A stretch of DNA of 64,000 nucleotides from a virus. This document shows, in pieces, positions 3,001 to 44,340 of the stretch; the stretch's first letter is position 1; each line of letters opens with the position of its first letter. The translations under genes and the position numbers were made by a program. The DNA lies in IMG/VR virus record IMGVR_UViG_3300037346_000419, positions 1-64,000 of that record; one strand, given 5' to 3'. The notes under the pieces are model-generated. The model did no database searches. It worked only from the letters and a program-made list of their open reading frames with translations, and had not been told where the DNA came from.

Positions 3001-6000
3001 AAATTAAAAGCTGTAGATAGTCAAATAGATAAAATGGCAAATTCTGTATTAGAAGAGTTTGGGGCCATATTTAATTTAGACTTAGCACAGGATATTGCAG
3101 AAAATCAAGAAAGCTTTTCAAAAAGCTCTTTGGAAAATGATTTAGTTTTATCTTTTAGTAAAGCTTTACTATTTTCTTTTTATGGTTTTCAGAAAAAAAC
3201 AAATTTTGGAACAACTGTGAAAAACAGTTTTGGTTTACCCACATATCATACTGCTAATGAAGTTAAAACACAACTTTTAGATAAGACAAGTGATATTCCA
3301 AATTCTTGGCCAGCTTTAATGGAAACTTTAAATAATAGCTATCAAATGGCTTATTTTGGACAAGCTAATAATAAGAACATAACAGAAAGAATACATTTGT
3401 ATAAAGACTTAATGGATAAGTTAGAAGCTTTTCCTCAAAATTTAAAGAATGAGATTCTTAGTAAGATGGTTACTAATAAAGTAAGTCTTATAAAAATATT
3501 ATTGAGTCCTGGAAAACAACTCCAAACTGATAGAAAACTGGAAACTTTTTCAAATGGAGAACCTAAATATGCAAGTTATAGTTCTACAATCATTGATGAA
3601 AATTCAAAAAGAGCTGATATAAAACTAAAAGAAAAAATAAAAAAGAATTTTTATGAAGTTTTTGGTGTATTAGATAAAGGACAAATTTCTTTAAATCAAG
3701 AGTACATGACTAATATTATTAGTCAATTAGATACTATCATTAAAAGTCAAGATACAAATCCTGATACTATAATTGATTTATTACATAAAATAGGTTTTAG
3801 TGATATAGAAAAGAACTCTATAAAGTATCTGTTAAACTTACAAGGAATACAAGTAAAGAATAAAACTATAAACATTTTTAGTGATACAAGTGGTTTATTA
3901 GGATTGCTTAGAAAAGAAATGCAGAAAACTTTAGAAGCATCAAAAACAGAAGGTTTCAGTTTAGATAAATCAAATAATCCTTATGAAGAAATAAACAATG
4001 TATTGAAATTTTTAGTAAGTATTGAAATCAATCTTAATAGAAACCTTTTAGGTAGTAGTATATATGTAGGAGACAAAACAGTTTCTACAACTATGCCAAC
4101 TTCTGAATTTTTTGATACTAATAAAAGATTAGCTAATCCAGAAGAAGTTGAAAAATTATTATCTTTACCTTTTCAATCAAGAAACTTCATATTAAAAGCT
4201 TTACTAACTGATGAAGTCTTTAGAGAAAACTTTAATAAGTTATCTTTCCCTTCTTTAGAAGCTTTAGCTGTACACAAAAAAGATTCTTTTGGTGACACTT
4301 CTTATGATAAAATTTCACCTACTGATTCTTTATTAGTTGCTTTAAACTTATATAGTAATACTAGATTTGAAGAATTACAAAATAGTAATTTAAGTGAAGA
4401 TTTTCCTAGTTTAGTATTTAGAATAGGAATGATGCCAAGTTTAACAATAGCTGATAAAGGTAGGACTTTATATCAAACTATACCTCTATTAAACTTTACT
4501 CAAAAAGAAGCTAATTTTGAAAATGATACTTTATCTTTATCTGAAGATGTTTTATCTTTCATGTCTCAACAAACTTTTGAAGCTGAGTTAGCTAATATTT
4601 TAGAAATACAAAAAAACAAAACTAATTACAAAAACTATAATGAAGCATCTCAAATGTTTTACTCTATTAATGATTTCAACATTATTAGTATTGAAATAAA
4701 TGGAAAAAATACAAACATACATGAGATATTACAAAATTTAACAGATGGTTATTTAAGTGAAGATATAAAAGAACAATTAATTGCAAAAGCAAAAGAAAAA
4801 ATTAATAATTATGTTGCTCATGAAACAGATACAAAAATAAAAAAAGATAGTTTTAATGTTGTAAATGGAGAAGTAGTTGAAGCTAAAATATACAACTCAG
4901 AGTCTGATAAACATTTAAGTAATATAAATACAAATTATGTTTCCAGTAAAGTTGGAGAAACTAACTATGATAAGTTAAGAGTTGTTATGGCAGAACACGC
5001 TGTTAATAATTTATTAAATCATTTTTCTACTACTCAGATATATTTAGGTAACTCTGCTTTTTATTCTAAAGTAAAAGTATCAAAAGATATTAAAAAACTT
5101 AATGATATAAGGTACTGGAAAAAGAATATGGAAAAAACAGCAGCTCTTATACAAAAAAGAACTGCAAAACTTATTGCTCCAGGAAATAAAATAGCTGACT
5201 CTGATAACATCAATAGTCAATACTCTACTGAGTTTACTCATATAGCAATAGAAGATGTAGAAAGTATGTCTTCTTTTATAAAAGAGTTAATTGAAAATCA
5301 ATATGGAGTATTAACTACAGAACAAAACTTAGCTTTAGAAGAAATTTCTAGATTAAGAGAAATACTAAATAGTACAGATAACAAAGAAACTATAAAATCT
5401 GTATTAGAGAAAATAAGTAATATAAAAGAAGAACACTTTAGTGAAGTTGCAGATTACTTTAATATAACAGGAACTGATGCTCAAGGTTATGTAACTTGGA
5501 AAGGTTATTTAGAAATGCTTGTAAGACAAAATTTAATTACTGAACAAGAAAGTGAAGATTACACAAAAAAGATAGAAGAAGGAGAATTAAGTGAAAAAGC
5601 TTTAGATAAATTAATGAAACTTAATATGCAGCCTGTTAAACCTGTATATAGTGCTAGTATAATTCAAGGTAATCAATTAGTACCTGTATATATCAAAATG
5701 TCTGAGTTTCCATTGTTTCCTCAATTAACTGCTGGTCTTAAAATTGACAAGATTAGAAAAGTGATGGAAACTATACAAGATGAAAAAAGTAATTCAAAAT
5801 TACATCCTGTAAGAGCTTCTTATCAATCTGCAAATAAAATTGGTTCTGTTGATACTCAATTAACAACAAAAGAATTATATGAATTTGATGGAAATTTAAA
5901 GAATTTAAAGAGTTTAGAAAGTAGTCTAAGTGTTTTACCTATGTCTGGTTACAGAATACAACAAGCTACTCCTAGTAAAGAAGATAAAGCATTTAAAAAA

Positions 6001-9000
6001 GGTAAAGATTCTTATATTACTATGGGGTCACAATTTTTTAAAGTTCTTTTAGGAAACTTTGTAAATAAAATTACAGATAACATATTTCCAAATGTATTTA
6101 GTACTGAGGTATTAGAACTATCAGGAGTAGAAGTAAAAGAAAATCTATCAGGTGAAGACTTAGATAAAATATATTTTAAAATGTATAATATGTTTTCTGA
6201 CTTACTTTCTTTACAATTAGAAACTGAATTAGGTTTAACTGATGTATCTTTTAATGATATGTCTATAGGAGAACAAAATGAAGCTATACAAAAAATAAGT
6301 AAGATATTAACAAAAGAAATAAATGAAAGAAATTATCCAAAGTACTTAAAAAATTCTATAGCTTTAATTGAAGAAAACAATAGAGCTTTTATGGAAGGTA
6401 CATTAATGTTTGATAATAACAGACATAAATTTGAATCTTTGTTACAATCTGTAATAGCAAATAAAATTATTAGTCATTCATTACCTGGAAATGCTCATAT
6501 CTCAGCTTCTTCTGAAGGCTTTGAAGCTATTAAGGATATGGATAGTTTAGATGAAGTAACTAAATCTAAAATAATTTGGGTTACTGAAATTGATGGAGAA
6601 TTAAAAGGAACTTTTGTAAAAGATAATAATGGTAAAGACCAAATTCACACTTCACAAGTTTTACTTAAAGCTCATTGGAAATATACAGATGAAAATGGAG
6701 TACTCAAATATGTAGATTTAACAGATGAAAAATATTATACTTTAAATAAAGAGACAGGTAGAAAAATGTTAAATTTAGATATGATTGATAAGGAATTGTT
6801 GGCTATGTTCTCTTTTAGAATACCAACATCTTCTCACCAATCAGGAGCTTTATTAGAAGTAGTAGGATTTTTACCTTCTGATTGTCAAGATTTACTTATA
6901 GTTCCTAAAGAACACACAGTTCAATTAGGAGAAGATTATGATGTGGATAAAAGAAACATTTACAAATTAAATTATTATGTAGATAATGAAGGTAATATTA
7001 AAAAATTAACAAAAGAATACAAAGATGAAGTTTTAAATTCTGAAGAATTATTAACTTGGAAAGAAAAACATGACATATTGTATAGTGAATTAGAAGGATA
7101 TTTAAATGAAGTTAGATTAGGAAAAGATTCTGAAGATTTTAAATCTTATGTTAAAAGTATTAATCACAATATAAAAGAAATGATTTTAACAAAAACTTTT
7201 ATACTATATGATATTTTTAAAAATAAAAAAGATAATAACTCTTTAGAAGAATTTATAGATTCTGTATTTTCAGATAAAATTTTACAAAAAGAATTAGCAG
7301 ACACAAATTCTTTAATTAAAGATTATAAAAATGAACAAGAAGGTGTTAATGAAATTAAAAATTTAATAAGAGATTTGTACACAGCTTTTAATTATGAAAG
7401 AAGTAGAATAGAAGGTGTATCTGAAAAATTTAAAAAGAATTTAGAGGAGAAATTTCAAATCAAACTTTTAGAAAATGCCTTGATTGATTTATATACTTCT
7501 GTTTATTCTACAACGAATTTAGATGTACAAAGAAAAATATTTAAGCCTTTAACTACTGAAGTAGTTGATACTACTGCAAACTTGATTTTTGATAAAGTTT
7601 CTAAAAATAATAATAATGAAAACTTTAGTATGTTTTCAGAGAGTTATCAAAGAGAGTTATTAAAAAATGGAGCTGATGGTCAAATAGCTATTGGAGAGTC
7701 TTCTTTAGCAGTTGTATTTGAAGCCCAACTTCAAAGAAATGAAAACACAATTAAATTAACTGATTTAGAATACAATCAAGAAGGTGTTTTAGTAGATGTA
7801 CCATTTGCAGAAGTAATTGGAACACTTCAAAATAGTAATGATATTGGAAAACATTTAAAAACTATAGATGGTAAAAGAAATGTTAGTGATATTCATGGAG
7901 AAAATCAAAATAACAACACTGATGCAGTAAATAAAGGAAACATGAGTAAGAGAAATGAAAATACTGTTACTCTTAGGGTGTATAACTTTATGGCTCATTT
8001 ACGTTTTGATTTAACACCAGATAGAATTAACACAGGAATAGAAGTAGTTTATGATAAACAAGATGATAATGTAAGCATAGGTAAAGAAGTTAAAGTTACT
8101 TATAATAAAAACTCTGTTAATGCGATTATTTCTAGTCAAAATGAAGATGGTACTTATAATGCTATTATAAATGAACAATTAAGTGTTCCTTCTTTGATGA
8201 TAAGTCAACCAGTTATAAAAGATTATGTTAGATTGATGACTAGTTATAATTCTATAACTGCTAAATATTCTGCTGAAAAACAACAACAAATAATAACTGA
8301 TTTATCTAAAATATATGGTTTTAAAATTGTTAGAAAAGAAGATGGAACAATAGATACTGCTAAGTTTGTTGATGCCTTAACTTATAATGAAGAATCTACA
8401 AATTTAACAGGTAGTCATATGTGGGACACATTAGATAAAAACCAAGCTTTAAAATTCCCTAATTCTCAAGCTACAATTTTACAAAAATTTATTAGAATTG
8501 AAAATAAAGCTTTAGAAATGGCTAGAGTTAGAAAATTGATTAACTTTAGTTCTTCTAAGATGGGTATATCTTATTTTGAAGTATTAGATAAGATAAAAGA
8601 ATTAACTAGATTAGGAAGAAATCATTTATCTCAAATTGAAAATAAAAATGAAATAACAAATCATTCTAAGTTAATTGGAGAAGTAAGTAAAGAACAATTG
8701 CCAGGTTACAAAAAAATAGGCGAATTATATTGGAAACCTACAACTATTGAAGGTACAATGTTAATCAATGCATTATTTGCAACAGAAAAATTATTACCTG
8801 CTTTCTTTCCTTATGAATCTGGAACAATATTTACTATCATAAGTCAAATTACAAATAATGAACAATTACAAGAACCAAAATTAAACTTAAAAGATAATTA
8901 TAAAATTATGACTGAGTTTGTAAATTTTATAAATTCTGATATTGGTGTATTTGAAAATGATATTGAAAATGAAAGAGAAAGATTAATGTATGAAAATAAA

Positions 9001-37596: not shown

Positions 37597-39594
37597 TTAA
37601 TGGCAATCTGCATAATTTAAACCCCAATCCATACTAATATTAATTTCTACATTTAACTTAATTTGTTCATTTGTTTCTATAATACTTTTCTCTAATATTT
37701 TTTCCATTTTTTCTTTTTTATCTTTTTTACATAAAAGTAATATTTCATCATGATACTGTAAAAGTATATTCATATAATTAGTATCTAATTTATTTTTTAC
37801 ATTTCTAACCCAAGTATCAAAAAAATAAACTCCTGCACTCTGATTGAGGGTCGAAAATTTATCTTTATCTGCTTTAAGAAAATAATAAAAACCACTAACA
37901 GGGTTATATAACCATTTTTGTTTTTGGTTTATTACTACATATTCTTTTTTATAAACTTTATTACCTTTTTCATCTACAAAATCTAAAACTAATTTTTGTA
38001 CCCAATTTTTACTATCAACTATTATTACTTTTGTGTCTTTTGCAGTCTGTTTAACTGCTTTATTTCTTTCCCAATAAGTTTTATGTAATATTGTAGCAAA
38101 AGCTATATCACATTTAAGTGTTAAAGCTATTTTAGCTGGGCCAGCACCATAAGTTGCAGAAAAATTAACTACTTTAGCTTTATTTCTAACAACTTTAATA
38201 ATTTTTAATCTACCCTGTTCATCAGAGGTAAAAATATAAGTTTTATCTTTAGATTCACACCATTTAAAAAATACTTCATCATCTTTAGTTAGCATACCTG
38301 CTAAAACAGCTATATCAATATGAGGGTCAAATCCTGGTACTCTCATTGCATTTACATAATCAGGGTCATAAAAATATATAAAATGCTGTTTGGTATTATC
38401 CTCTAAACCACTAACATCACTACCACACATAATATAAGAATCATCAGGTACTATTAAAGCCCCTCTAATTTGTTCTCCATAATATGTATTTACTTTTGGT
38501 AAATTTGATATAGGTTTCTTATGTTTTAACCTTATAGTATTAGTAAAACCTTGAGCAGAAGCATAAACTTTGTTATTTTCATCTTTATTTTCTATATAAG
38601 ATTTAAATAATCCATATCTATGTTTTGCTTTATACAAACCTTCAAGAGATTCTAAATAAGGATAATCTTCAAATAAATATTTTACACTTTGACATAATCC
38701 TCCTCCAAATGGTAAAGATACTTGAGGTAAATTTTCACCTGTACTTTTACTAATTTTAAAAGTTTGAGGTTGCCAATTTAAACTAAATAACCAAGTTTGT
38801 AATTGTTTATGAGAACCTGGATTAGGTCTTTCTCTTACTTCTTCAGTTTCTTTAGGTAAATTATTCTCTTTTAAATAATCAAACCATTTTTCTCCATAAT
38901 TAGATAATGTTCCATCTATTTTATATAGTTTTTTTGGTTTAGATTTTAACAATTTACCTAATTCTTTTGGCATATTTAAAGATAATTCTTCTATTTTTTC
39001 TTCAATTTCAAACTCTAAGTTTAACATTGATTCTTGAATTAAATTAATATCTAAATCAATACCAATACTTTCTTGGTCTTTTAAACAAAGCATTTTAAAA
39101 TTTAAGTAAGAAAACACTCTATTTATTTTATCTAAATTTCCATAGACATTCATAGCATAATCCATTTGATAGTGGAACAATCTAGTGTTTATTTCAACAT
39201 CAGATTCACACCTATTAATATAAACAGCTACTGGTTGATTTCCCCAATCAGTTATTTTAGGTTTTAAAAAACCTAATCTTTCTCCCCAAAATTCTAAACC
39301 ATGTTTGAAACCTTTTACAGGATATTGATACCAAGATATAGCTAGAGTATCATATACTTTATTAAGAATTTTAATATTTAATATTTTTTCTAAAGCTGGT
39401 ATATCATATCTTATAATATTATGTCCAACTAAAATATAATCTTTTTGTATAAATTCAATTATATCTTTATGTAACACTAGACTGTTTTTTTCAATTAAAG
39501 TTTTGTTTTCATAAATAGCATAAGAAAAACAGTGTGTTTTAGTGATTTTATCTAGTAAGTTATCAGCTTCAATATCAAATATACAATACTTCAT
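37597..39594 (-). CDS. Family A DNA polymerase with 3'-5' exonuclease
   Basis: Copies the phage genome. The exonuclease domain begins at residue 1: CIFDIEADNLLD (Exo I, Asp-x-Glu) and VGHNIIRYDIPAL (Exo II). The polymerase domain has MCGSDVSGLEDN (motif A Asp), KVVNFSATYGAGPAKIAL (motif B finger helix) and LLQYHDEILLLC (motif C His-Asp-Glu). At 665 residues it is complete, with no intein or intron, unlike other key genes here. It ends the core replication block. Confidence 0.93.
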   Translation of the reverse strand: MKYCIFDIEADNLLDKITKTHCFSYAIYENKTLIEKNSLVLHKDIIEFIQKDYILVGHNIIRYDIPALEKILNIKILNKVYDTLAISWYQYPVKGFKHGLEFWGERLGFLKPKITDWGNQPVAVYINRCESDVEINTRLFHYQMDYAMNVYGNLDKINRVFSYLNFKMLCLKDQESIGIDLDINLIQESMLNLEFEIEEKIEELSLNMPKELGKLLKSKPKKLYKIDGTLSNYGEKWFDYLKENNLPKETEEVRERPNPGSHKQLQTWLFSLNWQPQTFKISKSTGENLPQVSLPFGGGLCQSVKYLFEDYPYLESLEGLYKAKHRYGLFKSYIENKDENNKVYASAQGFTNTIRLKHKKPISNLPKVNTYYGEQIRGALIVPDDSYIMCGSDVSGLEDNTKQHFIYFYDPDYVNAMRVPGFDPHIDIAVLAGMLTKDDEVFFKWCESKDKTYIFTSDEQGRLKIIKVVRNKAKVVNFSATYGAGPAKIALTLKCDIAFATILHKTYWERNKAVKQTAKDTKVIIVDSKNWVQKLVLDFVDEKGNKVYKKEYVVINQKQKWLYNPVSGFYYFLKADKDKFSTLNQSAGVYFFDTWVRNVKNKLDTNYMNILLQYHDEILLLCKKDKKEKMEKILEKSIIETNEQIKLNVEINISMDWGLNYADCH

Positions 39595-41408: not shown

Positions 41409-41431
41409 TTTTATTTATTTTAATTTTTTTG

Positions 41432-41811
41432 AGGAGCTGGAGGGTATTGAACCCTCGTCTAGCCTAACTTTTAGTAATAAAATTATACAAGTTTTTATTA
41501 TATTTCTTTTAATTCTTTATATTAGAATATAGGGGTCAACCAGTTAAGATTAACTTTCACCAATTGATTTCTTTTATACTTATAAATCAATAAATAAGTT
41601 TTTTGTCATAAGAACTACTACGCAGCAGTTAACACTAACTCTTCTGTTTCTACCTGAGCTAAGGCAATCGTTTTAGGATTAGAAATCTCTAAAGACGAAA
41701 TGATTACATTACTGTTGCCATTTAAAATTTAATAATCAATTTTTAATGTGTAGATTATCAACCACATACTTGTTTTATTACCTATATTATCTATCAAATC
41801 CATTCAGCCCC
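41432..41811 (-). ncRNA. ssrA: tmRNA (phage-encoded)
   Basis: The 380-nt RNA has all tmRNA hallmarks. The 5' end GGGGCTGAATGGATTTGAT matches the tmRNA start, and GGGGCTG pairs with the 3' CAGCTCC (7 bp, one G-U). The T arm is GAGGG-TTCAATA-CCCTC. The tag frame starts at GCC (41665): ALAQVETEELVLTAA then TAG (41620-41618). The tag ends in AA like host degradation tags but differs from ANDENYALAA types. CCA is not encoded. It would rescue stalled ribosomes and tag the nascent chain; the exact resume codon is inferred. Confidence 0.9.
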
Positions 41812-41820
41812 TGATAATAA

Positions 41821-41922
41821 AATACATGTTTGTTTATAAGTTTTTCTCATTAATTTCTTGAGTAAACAACCTGGTATTAATTTTTGATAAGCTACCAGAA
41901 CTTTCTCTTATCTACATGTATT
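41821..41922 (-). ncRNA. Structured RNA element just upstream of the tmRNA
   Basis: On the - strand the outer arms AATACATGT and ACATGTATT pair. Inside, GATAAG pairs with CTTATC, and the loop sequence CTGGTA pairs with a downstream TACCAG, making a pseudoknot. No gene is present. It could be a tmRNA leader, a separate small RNA or a cis-regulator. The outer arms contain the palindrome ACATGT, which weakens that part. Confidence 0.45.
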
Positions 41923-41925
41923 AAA

Positions 41926-41962
41926 TTAGTGCAAAGATAAGTAAAATTTATCTTTGCACTAA
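41926..41962. promoter_or_regulatory. 15-bp perfect dyad with promoter -7 boxes in both arms
   Basis: TTAGTGCAAAGATAA, a 7-base loop, then its exact inverse. Each arm contains TATCTTTG (fits TAnnTTTG), one reading left and one right. The element lies between a 54-residue gene and the structured RNA/tmRNA. It can act as a terminator of the gene, a promoter of the tmRNA, or an operator for a dimeric regulator. Confidence 0.65.
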
Positions 41963-41967
41963 TATTT

Positions 41968-42354: not shown

Positions 42355-42370
42355 GTTATTTTTTATTTTG

Positions 42371-42453
42371 TGGTCAAAGCGAGAATCGAACTCGCACTCC
42401 AAATTGGAACAAGATTTTAAGTCTTGCGTGTCTACCTATTCCACCATTTGACC
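42371..42453 (-). tRNA. tRNA-Leu (UAA)
   Basis: 83 nt. Acceptor GGTCAAA/TTTGACC with A73, D arm, anticodon stem CAAGA/TCTTG with loop CTTAAAA (anticodon UAA), short class II variable arm TTCC-AATT-TGGA, and T arm CGAG-TTCGATT-CTCG. CCA is not encoded. UUA is one of the commonest codons in this AT-rich genome, so the tRNA matches phage codon demand. Confidence 0.93.
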
Positions 42454-44210: not shown

Positions 44211-44340
44211 TAGTGAGGACAGGACTCGAACCTGCACTGCTGTTTTTACCCCAAGGTCAAGCCATTTCTGACACGGCAACCTTTATCGAAATTATTTTGG
44301 GTAGGTTGATAATTGCGTTTACCAGTTCCGCCACCTCACT
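44211..44340 (-). tRNA. Abnormal tRNA-like gene with expanded middle (130 nt)
   Basis: The acceptor AGTGAGG/CCTCACT with A73, the D arm GCGGAACTGGTAAACGC and the T arm GCAGG-TTCGAGT-CCTGT are all intact and of leucine type. Between D and T arms are 79 nt where about 35 are expected. No 5-bp/7-nt anticodon arm with U33 is found; candidate stems are TTATC/GATAA (20-nt loop) and AAGGT/ACCTT. It may be a tRNA with an insertion, an intron, or a decayed gene. Anticodon not assigned. Confidence 0.6.

Follow-up and report, generated by a model that had tools for sequence, protein, structure and literature searches.

In bacteria, the tag encoded by a tmRNA (ssrA) usually counts 9-10 aa and marks the protein for destruction, the AA end of bacterial ssrA tags being an established degron for proteases of the ClpXP type. 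Phages are known for years to encode tmRNAs as well, the purpose of which is unclear. In a survey, a tmRNA was present in 402 of 18,146 phage genomes (PMC9004378) and, in the part of the tmRNA database paper considered here, 10 aa is the commonest tag length and the long tags presented here are not described (PMC11915505). Like the virus considered below, mycobacteriophage Wildcat and its relatives, Bacillus phage G and methylophage Melnitz carry phage-encoded tmRNAs, that of Wildcat giving a precedent for strong expression (PMC7474061). The Melnitz tmRNA is permuted and in two pieces, unlike the one-piece molecule described here, while phage DS6A encodes a tmRNA-derived RNA reduced to the tRNA-like domain and devoid of a tag frame, which inhibits the endogenous tmRNA in E. 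coli (PMC4131195, PMC11915505). On the bacterial side, the ssrA genes of Flavobacteriaceae (Rfam family RF00023) have in common with the present locus the G3-U70 pair, T arm, helix 2, pseudoknot PK1, GGC resume codon, AA end of the tag and resume context, e.g., TTTAAAC before GGC; they nonetheless differ from the present gene, which scores under the RF00023 cut-off (33.1 bits) and has U73 and a 33-aa tag, the tag GENNYALAA of the bacterial copies retrieved having 9 aa. As the Flavobacteriaceae scan was selected for GENNYALAA, it gives no measure of the universality of this tag. In the bacterium Nonlabens antarcticus (G037), contig 64 bears a second, partial tmRNA-like match (247167-247489, 24.9 bits) at 0.7 kb from its own ssrA.

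The window, i.e., the whole stretch of 64,000 nucleotides analysed here, comes from an 81-kb metagenomic viral record (26.6% GC) encoding a Crassvirus major capsid protein, a phage portal protein, a ribonucleotide reductase and a family A DNA polymerase; the virus is a Crassvirales-related phage. The tmRNA gene comprises the following elements:

41432-41811, minus strand: one-piece tmRNA (ssrA), from the acceptor 5' end to the discriminator base (RF00023, fold, polA synteny)
41805-41811, minus strand: acceptor 5' strand GGGGCTG, with G3 of G3-U70 (from the sequence)
41729-41767, minus strand: PK1, an H-type pseudoknot of AUGUG/CACAU (5 bp) and UUGAUAAUC/GAUUAUUAA (9 bp) (shuffle p 0.02)
41621-41719, minus strand: tag frame with resume codon GGC, 33 aa, GNSNVIISSLEISNPKTIALAQVETEELVLTAA (frame aligned by codon with locus L250)
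41615-41620, minus strand: two TAG stops in succession, in the tag frame
41433-41456, minus strand: T arm GAGGG-TTCAATA-CCCTC and acceptor 3' strand CAGCTCC, with U70
41432, minus strand: discriminator base 73, a U

The original prediction of a phage-encoded tmRNA at 41432-41811 is borne out by the covariance-model check it had called for, since RF00023 matches end to end (41429-41811, minus strand, whole model 1-374; 33.1 bits, E 4.1e-13 in the 81-kb record, and 1.6e-11 when the 64-kb window was scanned against all of Rfam) and the gene ends are exact from acceptor to discriminator. The score lies below the curated gathering cut-off of 47 bits, so that a gathering scan of the window reports two tRNAs only; likewise, ARAGORN detects no tmRNA in the window at default thresholds and recovers it after relaxing to 70%. 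The acceptor GGGGCTG/CAGCTCC and the T arm are as first described, the former forming 7 bp, including G3-U70, and the tRNA-like domain lacks an anticodon arm, while 3' CCA is absent from the gene. In the predicted fold (z -2.4), helix 2 is seen as well, along with some of the pseudoknot. The G3-U70 alanine identity pair is present in all 52 family sequences, window included. By contrast, U73 is peculiar to the window, A73 being found in the 51 other sequences read; A73 is usual in tmRNAs but not strictly defining, and U73 could weaken charging of this tmRNA.

The neighbourhood of the gene comprises:

37597-39594, minus strand: DNA polymerase A gene (polA), the anchor neighbour, downstream of the tmRNA
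41925-41963, strand not assigned: terminator-like hairpin of 18 bp between the tmRNA and the upstream genes (1 found, 0.1 expected in shuffles)
42370-42453, minus strand: tRNA-Leu (UAA)
44211-44340, minus strand: odd 130-nt tRNA-like gene

As an unbiased anchor, polA was used, and 80 polA loci were examined with a structural finder based on the acceptor, the T arm and a 5' motif. This finder recovered 25 tmRNAs, all of them upstream of polA and sharing its strand, against 0 in the opposite orientation, and a DNA profile contributed nine more tmRNAs. Among relatives with a polA at least 42% identical and with 6 kb or more of sequence available upstream, a tmRNA lies upstream of polA and on the same strand in 25 of 31, as against 2 of 14 more distant polA relatives. 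The distance to polA, with which the strand is shared, is 1.8 kb in the window, 4.0 kb in genome G004 and 3.5 kb in G019. Given this recurrence at the same place and on the same strand, and the imbalance of the finder between strands, the gene in the window is not a chance occurrence. A profile of the phage family matches it at 32.5 bits (E 6e-10), whereas a profile of 108 Bacteroidota tmRNAs reaches 13.4 bits over 27 nt only; the window tmRNA is taken as a diverged orthologue of the phage family and not as a recent host gene. BLASTN of the window tmRNA against known phages returned unrelated low-scoring matches only. The hairpin at 41925-41963 suggests that the tmRNA has its own promoter within 41812-41924, though by eye no clear Bacteroidota-type promoter was seen upstream of the tmRNA.

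The tRNA-Leu and the odd tRNA-like gene, which had been expected nearby, are both present. Of note, genes akin to the latter occur at L073 (10018-10117, minus strand) and at loci L317-L377; their acceptor, D arm and T arm are almost invariant, the anticodon arm is not recognisable, and the central region is hypervariable, both in its sequence and in its size, for a total of mostly 82-166 nt. The acceptor and D-arm pattern retrieved 62 phage stretches, in which the T arm and 3' acceptor, lying outside the pattern, are nearly invariant. These anticodon-less tRNA-like RNAs look like an undescribed family.

Regarding the tag, the conserved resume position, TTTTAAAT followed by GGC, sets a reading of 33 aa, which terminates with the hydrophobic LVLTAA and then TAG TAG. 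The frame first proposed is thus real, long and unusual with its AA end, but ALAQVETEELVLTAA represents the last 15 residues only; a 15-aa tag beginning at ALA was rejected, as the resume position gives 33 aa and locus L250 agrees codon by codon. Some crAss-like phages recode TAG; such recoding, entailing a longer tag, was also rejected since long ORFs of the record stop at TAA, TAG and TGA. In the tag, 11 of 33 codons have G or C at third position versus about 13% in the genes of the phage (p 0.002), as expected if the codons also pair in RNA stems. The tag was rightly called unlike the usual bacterial tags, yet it is no one-off: with its 33 aa and AA end, it belongs to a large long-tag family of Crassvirales-related flavobacterial phages, defined by tags of 26 aa or more with AA or VA at the end.

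The nearest relative of this tag is encoded at locus L250 (SDSNIVISEDNAEDVLTQIANSVVETETENEEGAKVIPMFPEPVAIAT, starting SDSNIVIS), and over the first eight codons the two align without gap from the resume codon (G/S, N/D, S/S, N/N, V/I, I/V, I/I, S/S in window/L250), the Ser codons differing (AGT/TCT and TCG/TCT) while the residue is kept. The tag type and frame of the window are backed by this one relative, the polA of which is 47% identical. Directly 5' of the resume codon, PK1 has an identical 5+9 bp geometry in L250 with other bases, i.e., compensatory changes. An H-type PK1 is retained in the window, L246, L247, L250 and L294; in tmRNAs with the tag core described below, it is replaced by a hairpin with a AGAGAUAA loop, which the window lacks. 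As a side observation, group I introns (RF00028) lie within the phage tmRNA loci L250 (1723-1986) and L096 (785-1010), the former beginning inside the T-loop sequence; in bacteria, introns at the T loop of tmRNA genes have already been described (PMC11915505).

Long tags are widespread in related phages. Genomes picked by a capsid protein related to that of the window, namely G004, G015, G019, G021 (two copies) and Flavobacterium phage FpV4, have tmRNAs above the Rfam cut-off. A pattern of their PK1 region retrieved four more stretches, including Cellulophaga phages phi38:1 and Calle, BLAST added phi14:2, and a pattern containing the tag core, which it thereby imposed, gave 34 stretches. The pooled searches yielded 31 distinct long-tag tmRNAs besides that of the window (26-50 aa), 27 of which end in AA, with the shared motif Q-[IVL]-x-A-N-M-x-x-V, usually followed by x-x-[IL]. 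Because the core was imposed by the search pattern, it was re-examined in tags found without it: QxxANM is present in 9 of 9, where its six codons show a pS of 0.90 and a pN of 0.076 (ratio 0.08; 0.08 to 0.13 across estimates). In these relatives, the QxxANM core is under selection at the protein level. Automatic search finds it in 24 of the 31 tmRNAs read at polA loci, and L077 has it too. A second tag type, (A/G)xxINxAEVxNAxxxNxLTAxYVSPxxxxLxAA, is common to L246, L247 and L253, and a third to L294 and L297, while the tags of L276 and L256 are short, at about 18 aa. In the window record, the core is absent, tag profile A2 having no match and only AQVE remaining, and the evidence of selection in relatives is therefore not directly transferable to the window. 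The tags of FpV4 and L262 (GNTNNSVVSLED...) nonetheless resemble, as judged by eye, its first residues, GNSN-VIISSLEIS, which links the tag type of the window to the core type.

For the phi38:1 and FpV4 tmRNAs, the predicted tagged ends are A-GNNTNAVNAQIEANMEAVNAILNLEVAVGV or A-GNTNNSVVSLEDNAQVEANMNMAFSLIREDVAVAA. As regards a source protein, the tag profile had no match in PDB and single weak matches only in PHROG (best E 0.021), and in phage genomes it matches the tmRNA locus alone. A bacterial origin of the core found no match in 397 Flavobacteriaceae genomes, the positive control being the phage records on which the profile was trained. AlphaFold2 models a single helix with confidence highest over the core, which, for a short peptide, weakly suggests a helix at the core of the relatives' tags; helical amphipathicity of the core does not clearly exceed that of shuffled sequences (z about 1). 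Several further observations were made on these loci. G021 (L041, L238, L242) bears two tmRNA genes, 103911-104311 and 7947-8326, each upstream of a polA-like gene, the tags of which are identical in their first half and differ in the second. tmRNAs are located at 81947-82361 of NC_041872 (FpV4) and at about 4031-4501 of NC_021806 (phi14:2), RefSeq having no tmRNA annotated in the stretches examined of either. At L093, a GOLLD RNA with an embedded tRNA (6195-6708) shares its stretch with a long-tag tmRNA and several tRNAs.

Considering the whole, the best explanation, to which we assign a probability of about 0.75, is that of a working tmRNA relying on host AlaRS and SmpB, where the long part of the tag is a phage-specific signal. 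No recognisable SmpB gene was found in the record of the window or in 20 relatives, so that host SmpB and AlaRS must serve the tmRNA, and trans-translation with these two host factors is its most likely role. Upon infection, the gene would yield a one-piece tmRNA, onto which host AlaRS would load alanine via G3-U70, and host SmpB would bring the charged molecule into stalled ribosomes. The stalled product would then gain an alanine plus the 33-aa tag ending LVLTAA, and the double TAG stop would free the ribosome. The hydrophobic -AA end would most likely still direct the product to a ClpXP-type protease, while the extra peptide may alter the fate of tagged proteins, e.g., by binding an adaptor of host or phage origin, a protease or another partner; adaptor binding and partner inhibition are the simplest ideas. 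Being superfluous for a plain degron and selected in relatives, the N-terminal part of the tag is probably a phage-specific signal, and the conserved phage-specific peptide of the relatives fits the idea of a tag changing the fate of the product. Going further, and more tentatively, trans-translation might be rewired, the tag being a selected phage-specific module that recruits or blocks a partner and so decides, to the advantage of the phage, what becomes of truncated proteins or of this partner, with modules turning over as hosts counter them; at least four types of such a module would exist, including QxxANMxxV and that of the window, but we would give this extended proposal somewhat less than even odds.

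Alternatively, the tmRNA might be a plain rescue copy only supplementing host trans-translation, with a longer tag as the neutral result of a lost early stop. The spread of tag lengths from 18 to 50 aa, the poor conservation of the second half of the tags and the few short-tagged relatives (L276 and L256, 18 aa) all accord with a neutral extension, which would not account for a nearly invariant QxxANM with a pN/pS of 0.08 to 0.13, albeit in relatives and not in the window, nor for long frames kept in almost all relatives; this explanation is judged unlikely. A decoy RNA, titrating host SmpB or blocking the host tmRNA with no productive tagging, would follow the precedent of DS6A (PMC4131195, PMC11915505), and U73 could impair charging; for such a role, however, a full frame with double stop, a retained PK1 and G3-U70 would be needless, and the peptide is selected in relatives, which makes it quite improbable. 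Least credible is a decaying passenger derived from a host ssrA, captured when recombination took place at an ssrA attachment site, as the low Rfam score, U73, the missing QxxANM core and the frequent use of ssrA genes as integration sites (PMC11915505) might suggest, against which stand a complete gene, a place upstream of polA conserved across many phages, a better match with the phage family than with tmRNAs of bacteria, a PK1 kept via compensatory change and the intact stems and frame of L250, even though its polA is only 47% identical.

For the working tmRNA with a phage-specific signal, a long tag conserved as protein offers a direct way of asking what the phage gains, namely by identifying which proteins are tagged and which partner the conserved peptide has, and the family includes isolated phages with cultivated hosts, i.e., Cellulophaga phages phi38:1, Calle and phi14:2 and Flavobacterium phage FpV4. 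Such genes are overlooked by standard annotation, as illustrated by ARAGORN defaults for the window and by RefSeq for FpV4 and phi14:2 in the stretches examined. While phage tmRNAs as such are already known, searches of the open-access literature did not turn up any description of conserved long tags from these phages, and on this basis the family is apparently undescribed; for Calle, the part considered of the report mentions a single tmRNA and not its tag (PMC8776804).

Compared with the known phage systems, the tag of Bacillus phage G is about 13 aa (AKLNITNNELQVA) and without the core. Cellulophaga phages Calle_1, in which the tmRNA is annotated, phi38:1 and phi14:2 as well as FpV4 resemble the window in having a phage tmRNA with a long tag beginning with GN; they differ from it in that their tags contain QxxANM, which reads QLKANM in phi14:2, and in that a hairpin stands in place of the H-type PK1, the window having neither. 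With FpV4, the capsid protein of which is related to that of the window, the likeness extends to the segment GNTNNSVVSLED, in common with GNSN-VIISSLEIS.
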